Shown piece by piece: positions 4,590 to 63,566 of a stretch of DNA of 64,000 nt. The DNA is from an uncultured Opitutia bacterium (GTDB taxonomy: Bacteria > Verrucomicrobiota > Verrucomicrobiia > Opitutales > UBA953). The notes below the pieces were generated by a model. The model was given only the letters and a program-made list of their open reading frames with translations. It searched no databases and was not told the DNA's origin. Location: assembly GCA_903840355.1 (NCBI GenBank), contig CAIMFJ010000004.1:310001-374000 (forward strand), given 5' to 3'. The first letter of the stretch is position 1. Every line of letters begins with the position of its first letter. The translations under genes and the position numbers were made by a program.

Positions 4590-6086
4590 TTAAGTGAAGA
4601 CTTTGATGCCGGCCTCGCGCATTTCGCTCAAGCGTTTCTTAAGCGTCGAACGGTTAATCCCCAAAATCATCGCAGAGCGCAGTTGGTTGCCACGAGTTTC
4701 TTCCATGGCCCGGCGGATCATCTCGAATTCAATAGTATTTAAAATATTTTTACTATCCCCGGTGCGACAGTGTTGGTAGAGCGAATCGTAGAGCGACAGG
4801 ATAGAGGGGGTGAGGGCTTTTGCGGCTACGGCCGTGCTGATCGGCTCGCTGGGAATGACAATCGGTACTTCCGAGGAAGCCGCTTTCCGAGGGACGAGGA
4901 CATCTTGTGGTAAGTCTTTAGCCAAGATGGTGTCCCCTTTGGCCAAGACGCCCGCCCGTTGGACGACGTTTTCTAATTCACGCACATTGCCTGGCCAATC
5001 ATAAACCAACAACGCATCGAGGGCTTCGTTCGAGAGCCGCTTGGGGCGTTGCTTCTTCGCGGCTGCTTGGCGTTGCAACATGTAATCGACGAGCAAGGGC
5101 AGGTCGGATTTGCGATGACGCAGGGCTGGCAGGCGAATGCGGAAGACGTTTAAGCGGTAGTATAAGTCTTCGCGGAAGAGTCGGGCCGACACCATCGCTT
5201 CGAGGTCTTTATTGGTCGCGGCGACGAGACGGACGCTCACTTTGAGCGTGGTGGTGCCGCCGACGCGTTGAATTTCACCTTCTTGAATCGCCCGAAGTAC
5301 TTTCGTTTGGGTGGGCAGCGACATATCGCCGATTTCATCGAGGAAAATCGTGCCCCCATCGCAGAGCTCAAACTTACCAGGCTTCATGTTCGCTGCTCCA
5401 GTGAAAGCGCCTTTTTCGTGTCCGAAGAGTTCAGACTCGATAAGGTTTTCAGGAATGGCAGCGCAGTTCACGGCTACGAATGGACCCTTGGAGCGCAAAG
5501 AGTGTTGGTGAATACAACGGGCAACTAATTCTTTACCCGTACCACTTTCGCCCGTGATCAGTACCGTGGCTTCGCTCGCGGCGACTTGACCGATGGACTT
5601 CAACACCTCTTGCATCGGTTCGGAACTGCCCACGATACCTTCTTTGTAGTCGGCAGGATTCACGAGTGCGCGCGAAGCTTTGCCAGCACTCGCTAAGTCG
5701 CGTCGGGCAGCGAGGGCTTTATCGATCAGCGCGATAAGTTTCGCTTGGTCGAAGGGCTTCATCACGTAGTCGTACGCCCCAAACTTCATCGCTTCGATAG
5801 CGGTTTGGGTCGTGCCGAAAGCCGTCATCAAAATGATCATTGCTTGGGGCTGTGAGCCGCGAAGCATTTGCAACGTTTCAATCCCTGTCATGCCACCCAT
5901 GCGGTTATCCAGTAGGATCACGTCAGGCTGTTCGCGCTTAGCCGAAACCACTCCGGATTCTCCGCTATCGGCCTCAATGACGTGATGGCCTAAGCCAGAG
6001 AGGGCCCGACGGAGCGAATACCGCAGGTCTTTGTCATCATCGATGACAAGGATTTTGGCCGCTGGACCTGGGGGATTGGAACTCAT
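4590..6086 (-). CDS. NtrC-family sigma54-dependent response regulator
   Basis: 498 residues with three domains. A receiver (about 10-125) has acidic residues in VIDDDKD, phospho-acceptor Asp60 in LLDNRM and Lys in MKPFD. An AAA+ domain (about 150-385) has Walker A GESGTGKE near 179, the sigma54-contacting GAFTGA loop near 228 and Walker [15 protein letters not shown]-terminal Fis-type helix-turn-helix lies at about 455-495. Such proteins bind upstream enhancers and hydrolyse ATP to open sigma54 promoters. No histidine kinase gene is adjacent, so it is an orphan here. A well-spaced -24/-12 sequence directly precedes its own start, implying self-activation, and the same kind of promoter precedes glutamine synthetase III. 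A nitrogen role is inference; NtrC, ZraR-like and motility regulators share this architecture. Confidence 0.93.
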
Positions 6087-6100
6087 AATGAGTAAAAGTA

Positions 6101-6116
6101 GGCAGATTCCGTGCCA
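6101..6116 (-). promoter_or_regulatory. Sigma54 (-24/-12) promoter of the NtrC-like regulator
   Basis: On the minus strand the sequence reads TGGCACG-GAAT-CTGCC. The essential GG (6115-6114) and GC (6103-6102) are exactly 12 bases apart, as in the consensus TGGCACG-N4-TTGC. Transcription would begin near 6090, only about four bases before the ATG at 6086. Placing a sigma54 promoter in front of a sigma54 activator fits autoregulation. Confidence 0.7.
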
Positions 6117-6239
6117 GACCGCATTTTGTAGAAAATATGGCTAAGAACGGCTTTAAGCAAACGGTTTGTGTTTAAATTTAGGCATATGCAGGTGGACTGC
6201 CCCCTTGCCTCTGCTGGGGTTCTGACAAATCTAAGTGGG

Positions 6240-53886: not shown

Positions 53887-54912
53887 ATGAAGCGTATGCG
53901 TCTTGTTTGGTTAAGTTTCCTACCATCGTGTCTCTTGGCCGATACGTTGACCTTTAAGGACGGCAGTTTTCTGCACGGACAAATTGAGCGGGTTGCTGAC
54001 GGTGTCGTTGAAATGTCCGTGCCCACGTTGAAAGCGTTGGCTCCTCTCCAGCATTTTTCGTTGAAGGATGTGGAGTCTTTTCTGACGGATGATCCCGTAG
54101 CGTTGAGTGGGGCGGGCGGGGCGGTGGTCCGGGGTGTGGCGTCGGCGAATGCTGGACGGGCGACGAGTTCGGGTGGCCCAGAGTCATTTGAACTTAATAA
54201 TACTTTTGAACTCTGGCGTGAGCCGCAGAGTCGACCACTAGAAACCAAAGAAGTGCGGAAGTGGACGATGGAAGCGGACGTTGATTTAGTGGGTCGCTCG
54301 GGAGCGGTTTCAGGCAGTAGTTACAGCGCGGGGTTTAAAGCTAAAGGTGTGACGGCGGATGATACTTTTACCGGAAGCATTCGCGGAGTCTACGCGGTCT
54401 CGGGTAATCAAACTTCTGCCGACGACTTACATTTAAATTTGGTTTACGAAACCAATCCGAAGAAAGAAGTCTTTTGGTATGCCCGGACTGATACGGGTTA
54501 TGATTACGTTCGCTACATCGATTTTTTCTCGGTTAATGCAGCCGGGTTAGGGCAGCGCCTCTACACGGATGCGCGGAGTAAATTAGATTTTCATTACGGT
54601 TTGGCGCATCGCTATGAAGAATATACTTTGGTCGGCCAATCGCCCCTTTCTGCTCCCTCAGCAGATACTGGGATCGTCTTTAACCATGAGTTCACCTGGG
54701 CAACTCTTGAGTCGGTGGTGAATTATGTGCCCTCGCTTTTGAACCTGGGTGATTACTACATCCACCATGAGACTACCTTGCATGTCTTAAAAAATAGTGG
54801 GCCGCTTTCACTTAAGTTAGGTATTAGCAATGACTTAAGAAGTAATCCGGTGGGTAATCAGGCTGCGCTCGAGACCACCTATTTCTTGCGGGCGACCTAT
54901 GTGTGGAAATGA
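53887..54912 (+). CDS. DUF481 family outer-membrane-like protein
   Basis: 341 residues from the ATG at 53887, which begins a short signal peptide (MKRMRLVWLSFLPSCLLA). The first mature part, DTLTFKDGSFLHGQIERVAD, is the small domain often found before DUF481 (GDRLTG-type repeats). The rest alternates polar and hydrophobic residues with aromatic ends, as in beta-barrels (EADVDLVGRSGAVSGSSYSA, LDFHYGLAHRYEEYTLVG, and a final LETTYFLRATYVWK strand with terminal Lys). Function in the family is unknown; some members respond to salt or acid. It is divergent from hemY. Confidence 0.78.
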   Translation: MKRMRLVWLSFLPSCLLADTLTFKDGSFLHGQIERVADGVVEMSVPTLKALAPLQHFSLKDVESFLTDDPVALSGAGGAVVRGVASANAGRATSSGGPESFELNNTFELWREPQSRPLETKEVRKWTMEADVDLVGRSGAVSGSSYSAGFKAKGVTADDTFTGSIRGVYAVSGNQTSADDLHLNLVYETNPKKEVFWYARTDTGYDYVRYIDFFSVNAAGLGQRLYTDARSKLDFHYGLAHRYEEYTLVGQSPLSAPSADTGIVFNHEFTWATLESVVNYVPSLLNLGDYYIHHETTLHVLKNSGPLSLKLGISNDLRSNPVGNQAALETTYFLRATYVWK

Positions 54913-54978
54913 GCAGGCTAAGTTTGCTTATTTTTAGTCAAAAAGTATAAAAACCAGCAGATTTACCCTATCGGAGAT

Positions 54979-54991
54979 TGCCTTGAAGGCA
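54979..54991. promoter_or_regulatory. Palindrome next to the sigma54 promoter of glutamine synthetase III
   Basis: TGCCTTGAAGGCA is a perfect 13-base palindrome around a central G. It ends two bases before the -24 element and is flanked by ACCCT (54965-54969) and AGGGT (55001-55005), which can pair around it. It is too close to be a typical NtrC enhancer, so a repressor site or an accessory protein site is more likely. Confidence 0.4.
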
Positions 54992-54992
54992 G

Positions 54993-55008
54993 TGGCACAC
55001 AGGGTGCT
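54993..55008 (+). promoter_or_regulatory. Sigma54 (-24/-12) promoter of glutamine synthetase III
   Basis: The sequence reads TGGCAC-ACAGG-GTGCTT. The invariant GG (54994-54995) and GC (55006-55007) are 12 bases apart, and the -24 hexamer is perfect. It resembles the nitrogen-controlled glnAp2 of E. coli (TGGCAC followed by CGCTT). The transcript would start near 55019, with a leader of about 38 bases before the ATG at 55057. Confidence 0.75.
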
Positions 55009-55056
55009 TAAAAGTTTACGTCTCCCTAGACTTTTCCTCTCAACACTAACCTATCC

Positions 55057-57219
55057 ATGAGTACCAATAAAGCCCGTCGCGAAGCCATTTCGGCCATCGC
55101 TTCCCAGCCCCGATTGAAAGGCACGTTCGACTTTCGTAATGAGAAGATCGACGTAATTTTCGGTCAGAACGTCTTCTCCCTAGAGAAGATGGAAAAGCGT
55201 TTGCCCAAAAACGTTTTCAAGTCCCTCAAGGCTTCGATCGAAACCGGTGCTAAGCTCGACTTGGCCGTGGCCGATGTCGTTGCTTCGGCGATTAAGGATT
55301 GGGCCTTGGAGATGGGCGCGACGCACTACGCTCACGTTTTCTACCCCTTGACTGGTTTCACGGCTGAAAAGCACGACACCTTCTTCGAGCCTAACGGCAC
55401 GGGCACGCTCGCGCAGTTCTCTGGTAAGGCTTTAGTCCAAGCTGAGCCTGATGCCTCTTCCTTCCCTAACGGCGGTCTGCGCTCCACCTTCGAAGCTCGT
55501 GGCTACACGGCTTGGGATGTGACCTCGCCTGCTTACATTTTCGACAACGAAAACGGTTCGACGCTCTGCATTCCGACCGCGTTCGTTTCCTGGAAGGGTG
55601 AAGCCCTCGATAAGAAGACCCCGCTCTTGCGCTCGATGGCTGCCGTTAATCGTGCGGCTTCGCGCGTCTTGTCGCTCTTCAATAACAATAAGAAGCACGG
55701 CTTCATCAGCGCTTCCTGCGGTCCTGAGCAAGAATACTTCTTGGTCGACTCGCGCCTCTATTTCCTCCGTCCCGACCTCTACACCTGTGGTCGCACGCTC
55801 TTTGGTGCAAAGCCTGCGAAGGGCCAGGAGTTCGAAGACCAATACTTCGGTACGATTCCTGAGCGCGTGTTGGCTTGCATGATGGAAACCGAACGCGAGT
55901 GCTTCAAACTCGGGATCCCCGTGAAGACCCGCCACAACGAAGTGGCTCCTGCTCAGTACGAAGTAGCTCCGATTTACGAATCCGCGAACGTCGCTCACGA
56001 CCACCAAATGTTGACGATGACGCTCTTGAAGCACGTCGCCGCTAAGCATGGTTTCGTTTGCTTGCTGATGGAAAAGCCCTTCGCCGGCGTGAACGGTTCG
56101 GGTAAGCACGTGAATTGGTCCATCGGTGGTCCGGGCGTGGGCAACTTGCTCGAGCCTGGCAACGACCCTCACGAAAACGCTCAGTTCTTGGCCTTCTGCA
56201 CGGCCGTGATCCGTGCTATCGACAGCCACCAAGGTTTGGTCCGTGCTTCCGTAGCTTCTGCGGGTAACGACCACCGCTTGGGTGCCAACGAAGCTCCTCC
56301 TGCGATCATCTCCATCTACCTCGGCGACATGTTGAATGAAGTCATCGAGCAAGTGAAGAAGAGCGGTACGGCCTCCACGTCTCGCAAGGGTGGTCATATG
56401 ACCCTCGGCGTCGACACCTTGCCTGTACTGCCTAAGGACGCTGGTGACCGTAATCGTACTAGTCCCTTCGCCTTCACGGGTAACAAGTTCGAGTTCCGCG
56501 CCGTCGGTTCGGCCTTCTCCGTGGCCGGTCCTCTCACGGTGTTGAACACCATCATGGCCGACTCGCTCGACAAGATGGCTGATGAAATCGCTGAAGCCTT
56601 GAAGTCTGAAAAGAACTTCAACGCTGCCTTGCAAAGCGTGCTCAAGGAAATCCTCCAAAAGCATGGCCGTATCATCTTCAATGGTAACGGTTACTCGGAA
56701 GCTTGGCACAAAGAAGCAGCGAAGCGCGGCTTGAAGAACTTGCGCAATACGCCTGAGGCCTTGCCTGAAATCGTCTCGAAGTCTTCGGTTGAAGTCTTTG
56801 AACGCCAAAACGTCTTGAGCAAAGCTGAGTTGGAATCGCGCGAAGAAATCTACACCCACTCCTACGTCCTCACGACCAATACGGAGTCGAAGTTGGTTTC
56901 CGAAATCGCTCGCACCATGATCTTGCCTGCCGCCTTGAAGTTTGCGGCTGACCTGACGAACGTCGAAAAGACCAAGTCTGGTGGCAAGTTGCGCAAGCAG
57001 GTCATCGCCTTGGCTGATGAACTCGCCGAAGCCGCCGACGCCCTCGATACCCTCCGCGAAGTCGCTAAGTCCGACACCCATGCTCAGGCTAAGCACTCCT
57101 GCGATAAGGTTATCCCTGCGATGTTGAAGGTCCGTGCTGCTGCTGACGCCTTGGAAGAAATCGTCTCCGACGAATACTGGCCTCTGCCTTCCTACCAAGA
57201 GTTGCTCTACCTCCGCTAA
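55057..57219 (+). CDS. glnA: Glutamine synthetase type III
   Basis: 720 residues, the size of the type III family (GSIII, often called GlnN) rather than the 470 of type I. Active-site blocks: [78 protein letters not shown] and [20 protein letters not shown]. It makes glutamine from glutamate, ammonia and ATP, and works as a dodecamer with two back-to-back hexamers. There is no adenylylation-site loop as in type I enzymes. It is preceded by a sigma54 promoter, so expression probably rises when nitrogen is limiting, and it is followed by two hairpin terminators. The first codons are preceded by CCTATCC, without a ribosome binding site. Confidence 0.97.
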
Positions 57220-57244
57220 GCCTTACGGCGAGCGAGGTGGTCTC

Positions 57245-57277
57245 AGGGTCGAACCGCAAGGTTCGGCCCTTTTTCTT
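57245..57277 (+). terminator. Rho-independent terminator of glutamine synthetase III
   Basis: AGGGTCGAACC (57245-57255) and GGTTCGGCCCT (57260-57270) form an 11-bp stem with one G-U pair and a GCAA tetraloop, followed by TTTTCTTG. Confidence 0.9.
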
Positions 57278-57301
57278 GCCCGTCTGATCCGGGTAACAAA
57301 A

Positions 57302-57322
57302 AACCCGTCACATGGACGGGTT
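57302..57322. terminator. Bidirectional terminator between glutamine synthetase III and rpsU
   Basis: AACCCGTC (57302-57309) and GACGGGTT (57315-57322) pair with a 5-base loop. An A-run lies before the stem and TTCTTTTTT after it, so it can stop transcripts from both sides and would terminate rpsU. Confidence 0.88.
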
Positions 57323-57346
57323 CTTTTTTGATCTCGGGGGACGAGA

Positions 57347-57547
57347 TTAGGCGTTGTCCCACTTCTTGCGAAGGTAGGCGTTGAAGGCTTTGACCTTCTT
57401 CTTGCGGCGACGACGCTCGGCAGGCTTTTCAAAGTTACGCTTCGCGCGGGCATCTTTGATAATGCCTTCACGGTCGATTTTCTTTTTGAGGCGGCGGAGG
57501 GCCTTATCGACGGTTTCGCCTTTACGAATCTTGATTTCTACGGACAT
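57347..57547 (-). CDS. rpsU: 30S ribosomal protein S21
   Basis: 66 residues, basic, with the S21 pattern: MSVEIKIRKGETVDKALRRL, then EGIIKDARAKRNFEKPAERR and a K/R-rich C-terminus (RRKKKVKAFNAYLRKKWDNA). S21 binds near the 3' end of 16S rRNA, close to the anti-Shine-Dalgarno. In Bacteroidota it helps to hide that sequence, which is relevant here since most genes lack Shine-Dalgarno motifs. The rpsU leader itself (CTCTAAAAAGCCAAC before ATG) also lacks one. It is a single-gene unit divergent from smc. Confidence 0.95.
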   Translation of the reverse strand: MSVEIKIRKGETVDKALRRLKKKIDREGIIKDARAKRNFEKPAERRRRKKKVKAFNAYLRKKWDNA

Positions 57548-63490: not shown

Positions 63491-63566
63491 GCCCCTGTAG
63501 CTCAGTTGGCAGAGCGCGTCCTTGGTAAGGACGAGGTCGCTGGTTCAAATCCAGTCGGGGGCTCCA
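63491..63566 (+). tRNA. tRNA-Thr (anticodon GGT)
   Basis: A complete 76-base cloverleaf. The acceptor stem GCCCCTG pairs with CGGGGGC (one G-U); the D-arm has GCTC and GAGC; the anticodon stem CGTCC/GGACG encloses loop TTGGTAA, giving anticodon GGT (reads ACC and ACT); the T-arm GCTGG-TTCAAAT-CCAGT includes the TTC motif; CCA is encoded. It lies 48 bases before tuf, the same pairing as thrT-tufB in E. coli. Confidence 0.97.

Follow-up and report, generated by a model that had tools for sequence, protein, structure and literature searches.

The gene for a type III glutamine synthetase (GSIII) in the window, the whole stretch of 64,000 nucleotides analyzed here from an uncultured Opitutia bacterium, very probably belongs to a small self-activating Ntr regulon, in which an RpoN promoter and an NtrC-like activator encoded in the same window, acting via an upstream operator (UAS), would drive GSIII, the activator gene, glnB and probably amtB. 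What is read directly from the DNA comprises the promoter and the operator with their conservation and constant spacing, rpoN, the domains of the activator and the recurrence of the operator-promoter unit at the activator gene and at glnB. Overall, the arrangement looks like a classic nitrogen-starvation switch set on an unusual type of glutamine synthetase. A sequence-only reading of this DNA had proposed the sigma-54 promoter; the conserved operator upstream of it and the activator gene with its own operator and promoter had been missed.

Table 1 Coordinates of the GSIII and activator features within the window.
Feature	Position	Strand	Sequence	Remarks
Predicted UAS1 of GSIII	54925..54940	+	TGCTTATTTTTAGTCA	palindromic; 15/16 positions of genus motif; fixed gap
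Degenerate second copy	54944..54959	+	AGTATAAAAACCAGCA	12/16 (own count), at relatives' UAS2 place; weak in own genome
13-mer palindrome	54979..54991	+	TGCCTTGAAGGCA	6-bp arms, one central base; coincidental
Sigma-54 promoter of GSIII (-24 GG, -12 GC)	54993..55008	+	TGGCACACAGGGTGCT	spacing; genus conservation
GSIII gene (glnN-type glutamine synthetase, 720 aa)	55057..57219	+		GSIII_N, Gln-synt_C-ter, Gln-synt_C matches
NtrC-like enhancer-binding protein, proposed activator (498 aa)	4590..6086	-		REC - AAA+ with GAFTGA - Fis-type HTH
UAS-like site overlapping -12 element and start of activator promoter	6089..6104	-	TGCCTACTTTTACTCA	
Sigma-54 promoter of activator gene	6101..6116	-	TGGCACGGAATCTGCC	promoter and UAS conserved in genus
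Predicted UAS of activator gene	6169..6184	-	TGCCTAAATTTAAACA	52 nt before TGGCAC, same gap as GSIII

Results

The gene had been read as a glutamine synthetase III, and the domain matches of its product agree: GSIII_N (PF12437) scored 244.8 bits against a cut-off of 25, Gln-synt_C-ter 132.8 bits and Gln-synt_C 73 bits, all above their cut-offs. With the GSIII_N domain and a length within about 720-730 aa, the protein has both hallmarks by which a GSIII is recognized; the NCBIfam model gln_synth_III (TIGR03105, 435 positions), which describes a shorter protein, did not match it. PF00120 found a single match genome-wide (2.27 Mb, 99.27% complete), which makes GSIII the sole glutamine synthetase found. 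Its relatives at the protein level come from MAGs titled Opitutales, Opitutae or Verrucomicrobia, many of them lake-derived judging by their isolate names. The sole Rfam match in the window is a tRNA gene at 63491-63563, and the region 54500-57400 contained no Rfam element up to E = 1.

The promoter has the form TGGCAC-N6-TGCT, with TGGCAC at 54993-54998 and TGCT at 55005-55008. Its GG (54994-54995) and GC (55006-55007) lie 12 apart with 10 bases between, and the GSIII ATG is at 55057, so that the T of TGGCAC is 64 bases upstream. The geometry given in the sequence-only reading, GG and GC spaced by 12 and a promoter 49 bases before the ATG, holds when the 49 bases are counted from the end of the GC. 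From this spacing, transcription is predicted to start near 55019. The predicted leader contains an inverted repeat, AAAAGT and ACTTTT (window 55011-55036), without an Rfam match. In comparison to a TGGCAY-N5-TTGCW-like sigma-54 context, the T before TGC is present and a G takes the place of the second T of TTGC. Against the E. coli RpoN consensus TGGCACnnTTnTTGC, as it stands in the available text of PMC8743547, the site agrees in TGGCAC and TGC and not in the Ts between.

By our own arithmetic, TGGCACN6TGC would turn up by chance on the right strand of a single preset 150-nt upstream stretch with a probability of about 0.001. On both strands of the own genome the pattern occurs 40 times versus 32 times when read backward, with no genome-wide enrichment, and a pattern match alone is therefore weak. 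It is the conservation within the genus, rather than the bare match, that argues for a real promoter. We searched 55 same-genus genomes, 49 of which gave an upstream row, and all 49 stretches were distinct; no row came from G038, G044 and G045, which were without a GSIII match, nor from genomes in which the gene start was missing. TGGCA-N8-GC is kept in register in 49/49 rows. Across these rows, TGGCA and TGCT are 100% invariant, while the next 25 columns average 0.59 bits. The site is also found in the four other usable genus-to-family rows (L047, L049, L050, L051). A site of this kind is absent from three far GSIII rows (L060-L062, from G076, G055 and G059), and the conservation count does not include them.

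Conserved -24/-12 elements in orthologous upstream regions were one of the checks proposed in the sequence-only reading, and the 49 genus rows bear the promoter out. The same reading would have given up the promoter in a genome lacking rpoN. The genome does encode RpoN, with the activator-interacting (PF00309), core-binding (PF04963) and DNA-binding (PF04552) domains all above cut-off and an NCBIfam TIGR02395 score of 355.9 versus a cut-off of 277.35.

Upstream of the promoter, the genus carries one or two copies of a 16-bp palindromic operator, TGYYTAWWWWTARRCA. We defined the gap as the distance between the palindrome's end and the T of TGGCAC and counted a UAS at a score of 13/16 or more. 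The gap is 51-53 nt for UAS1 in 48/49 GSIII rows and 31-33 for UAS2, 20 nt nearer to the promoter, in 46/49; the own genome is among the three without UAS2 and has a single strong copy. At least one copy is in register (gap 51-53 or 31-33) in 49/49 rows versus 0.165 rows in shuffles, a count that is partly circular because the motif was read from the same 49 rows. When two mismatches are allowed, the own genome holds at least 50 matches per strand for the pattern and likewise for the backward control, which makes this count uninformative. The stretch from UAS2 to the -24 element (window 54961-54992) is conserved in relatives, with a consensus near TGTGAATGGTTACCTATTGAACC, more than a plain spacer needs. 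UAS-like sequences scoring at least 13 also lie over the predicted GSIII start in 26/49 genus rows, some 23-38 nt past the T of TGGCAC.

The window also encodes a candidate activator. The protein scored 99.6 bits for Response_reg, 246.3 bits for Sigma54_activat and 38 bits for HTH_8, and GAFTGA was read in the translation, so that it combines the REC, GAFTGA-bearing AAA+ and Fis-type HTH domains of NtrC. Its best NCBIfam model is ntrC (TIGR01818), matched over the full length with 483.8 bits, below the equivalog cut-off of 558.6. Only two strong Sigma54_activat proteins are present in the genome, this one and G000:C4:87049. No NtrB-type kinase gene was recognized beside the activator gene, and none of the seven HisKA genes in the genome is adjacent to it.

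The activator gene has an operator-promoter unit, UAS plus sigma-54 promoter, of its own in 36/36 genus rows. This count excludes five of the 41 rows taken, which belong to other genera of the family (L084, L095, L115-L117); in these five the unit was not seen in its genus form. Transcription is predicted to start about 4 nt before the ATG (window 6086-6102, minus strand), and the transcript would thus have almost no leader; most genus rows show a similar spacing. A stretch with the UAS-like TGCCTACTTTTACTCA likewise lies 3' of the activator promoter in most genus rows, and we speculate that it could be a site of negative autoregulation. More generally, the UAS-like copies that overlap predicted starts, in the 26 GSIII rows and at the activator promoter, might mediate negative feedback.

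To locate further units, we scanned 37 same-genus genomes and 20 other genomes of the order for a composite of TGGCA and a UAS at 26-56 nt. Matches were obtained in 35/37 genus genomes and 0/20 others, with one backward-control match in all 57. The own genome gave only two, at GSIII and at the activator gene. Matches were assigned by gene places from the searches and by reading frames: 62 of the 64 genus matches fall at GSIII, the activator gene or glnB (4 at glnB). The other two are at G002:C204 and G015:C74, the latter near a reading frame that we take to be acetolactate-synthase-like.

Glutamine synthetase, PII and AmtB are classic Ntr targets. The sole PII gene of the genome, glnB, has a sigma-54 promoter TGGCACAAGGGTTGCA 68 nt before its ATG and UAS-like sites at gaps of 52 and 31. 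The promoter was found in 34/36 genus rows, with contig ends truncating the remaining two, and a UAS at a gap of 30-32 accompanies it in 30 of the 34. For amtB (PF00909), a sigma-54-type promoter TGGCACATCGGTTGCT lies 30 nt before the ATG, with a weak 13/16 UAS at a gap of 63 and a perfect one 336 nt upstream. Within this target set, GSIII and glnB thus have operator and promoter, whereas amtB has the promoter and only the weak near site. Upstream of the intact amtB lies the tail of a decayed second ammonium transporter (PF00909 positions 347-399; L351:825-1059, G000:C2:230522-230756), and the perfect 16-bp UAS, TGTTTATTTTTAAACA, stands in front of this remnant, to which it may belong.

Beyond the genus, 202/288 genomes of the phylum matched GSIII. 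We assembled 69 distant upstream stretches, 29 with loci returned by the search and 40 from listed matches starting at most 7 residues from the GSIII N-terminus, and scored them with a sigma-54 consensus against mononucleotide shuffles at a threshold of p <=0.02. A sense-strand sigma-54-type site was present in 21/29 and 27/40 genes (48/69 in total), and a site on the other strand in 0/29 and 8/40. Five of the eight loci with an antisense site were opened (L393-L397, from other families of the phylum). In 5/5 the start of the divergent gene resembles that of glutamate synthase, and the gene has a sigma-54-type site of its own; GATase_2 and Glu_syn_central matched in the two of these genes that were scanned. 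A further 31 GSIII loci, taken from named contigs (L233-L263), were scored on the sense strand. Their titles were planctomycete, other verrucomicrobial, deltaproteobacterial and other, their genomes partly overlapped the first set, and 10/31 had such a site at p <=0.02. The operator is another matter. We looked through the 110 nt preceding the promoter in the 50 of the 69 rows that passed the promoter rule, and none of them contained a TG..CA palindrome whose 6-bp arms were perfect. With the promoter widespread and the genus operator absent in distant families, the operator has changed.

Discussion

We propose that upon nitrogen limitation a kinase would phosphorylate the NtrC-like activator, which would bind UAS1 and the weak second site as oligomers. 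The bound activator would then loop to the GSIII promoter and open the RpoN-polymerase complex via its GAFTGA AAA+ domain, allowing RpoN-RNA polymerase to transcribe GSIII. Besides GSIII, the same protein would activate the gene that encodes it, glnB as the sole PII gene and probably amtB, and PII probably feeds back on the kinase, by analogy with enterobacteria as described in the available text of PMC4987338. In this scheme the start sites, the kinase and the nitrogen signal are predicted, as is the recognition of the operator by this activator.

A sigma-54 promoter could be real and yet be served by the other enhancer-binding protein of the genome, G000:C4:87049, which is also of the REC-AAA+-HTH type with GAFTGA. 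It occurs in almost as many genomes of the genus as the window activator does, most of them giving two matches, and phylogenetic profiling is uninformative as to which of them acts, because nearly all genus genomes have both. The window activator is, however, the one whose own gene carries the operator unit in every genus row, whereas inspection showed no such unit at the start of G000:C4:87049, which lies inside the end of hemA. Among the NCBIfam models, AtoC matches this protein best and ntrC comes second with 424.6 bits. We therefore regard G000:C4:87049 as an unlikely activator of GSIII. Less credible still is that the motif is a chance resemblance and that a sigma-70 promoter drives the gene. 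The lack of genome-wide enrichment over the backward pattern would fit such a view, but chance would hardly keep the motif in register throughout the genus rows or place sigma-54-type sites at 48/69 distant GSIII genes versus 8/69 on the other strand. A sigma-70-type site was not found in 54700-55200, and this candidate was rejected.

The sequence-only reading had further described a perfect 13-bp palindrome abutting the -24 element as a second layer of control, i.e., a repressor site. The palindrome is indeed perfect, and 'abuts' is nearly right, since a single base separates it from TGGCAC. Its proposed role fares differently. The arms are intact in the own genome only (1/49 genus rows), at this place the other 48 show 0 to 2 of the 6 arm pairs, and the sequence that the genus does conserve there, roughly TTRCCTRTTGAA, is not palindromic. 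Because it is not conserved, a role in a second layer of control is unsupported; we rejected the palindrome as an operator, consider a repressor site here very improbable and take the palindrome to be coincidental.

Returning to the regulon built on RpoN and the window activator, it is quite possible, though we put it forward tentatively, that sigma-54 control of GSIII is ancestral in the phylum and perhaps reaches the planctomycetes. This would amount to a GSIII-based Ntr system, with a divergent glutamate synthase on a second sigma-54 promoter in some families. This genus would then have a diverged NtrC, its own operator code and a minimal regulon of activator, PII, GSIII and amtB, and maybe also shut its promoters via the start-overlapping operator copies. 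For a large uncultivated group whose only glutamine synthetase is GSIII, a complete and testable circuit can be made out from the sequence: sigma factor, activator, operator and no fewer than three targets. With the operator code, the nitrogen regulon can be located in these MAGs, and a specific footprint and start site follow as predictions.

To our knowledge, transcriptional control of type III glutamine synthetases has been described mainly for cyanobacteria. A full-text search, judged by titles and the starts of abstracts and mostly without subscription journals, returned no published description of sigma-54 control of GSIII in this phylum, and nothing was found there on RpoN and glutamine synthetase in Akkermansia. 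Systems of this kind are already known; the literature searched showed none attached to GSIII in this phylum. According to the available text of PMC6316151, cyanobacterial glnN, which encodes a GSIII, is induced by nitrogen shortage under NtcA, a CRP-family regulator restricted to cyanobacteria. GSIII and nitrogen shortage are thus common to both, whereas control lies with NtcA there and with a sigma-54 promoter and an enhancer-binding protein here. Within the same phylum, Verrucomicrobiota, transcript levels are given for glnA, glnB, glnK, glnD, ntrB and four ntrC-family genes of Methylacidiphilum fumariolicum SolV (PMC3404531, available text); the glutamine synthetase gene there is called glnA and lies next to glnB, and that text shows no promoter or operator for it.

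The closest likeness is to the enterobacterial Ntr system (glnALG, glnK-amtB). Both have a sigma-54 -24/-12 promoter with paired palindromic enhancer sites upstream and a REC-AAA+-HTH activator of the NtrC type that also controls its own gene, as predicted here. The enterobacterial targets are glutamine synthetase, PII and amtB (PMC4987338, available text); here GSIII and glnB are the predicted targets and amtB is a probable one. The operators differ: the enterobacterial site is given as TGCACC(A/T)4TGGTGCA (PMC4987338) or TGCACCAnnnTGGTGCA (PMC8743547) in the available texts, and compared with TGCACC-N5-GGTGCA the genus operator shares the outer TG..CA, whereas the inner bases differ. The enzyme is GSI in enterobacteria and GSIII here and, unlike in enterobacteria, the activator gene has its own promoter, outside any operon with a glutamine synthetase or kinase gene.
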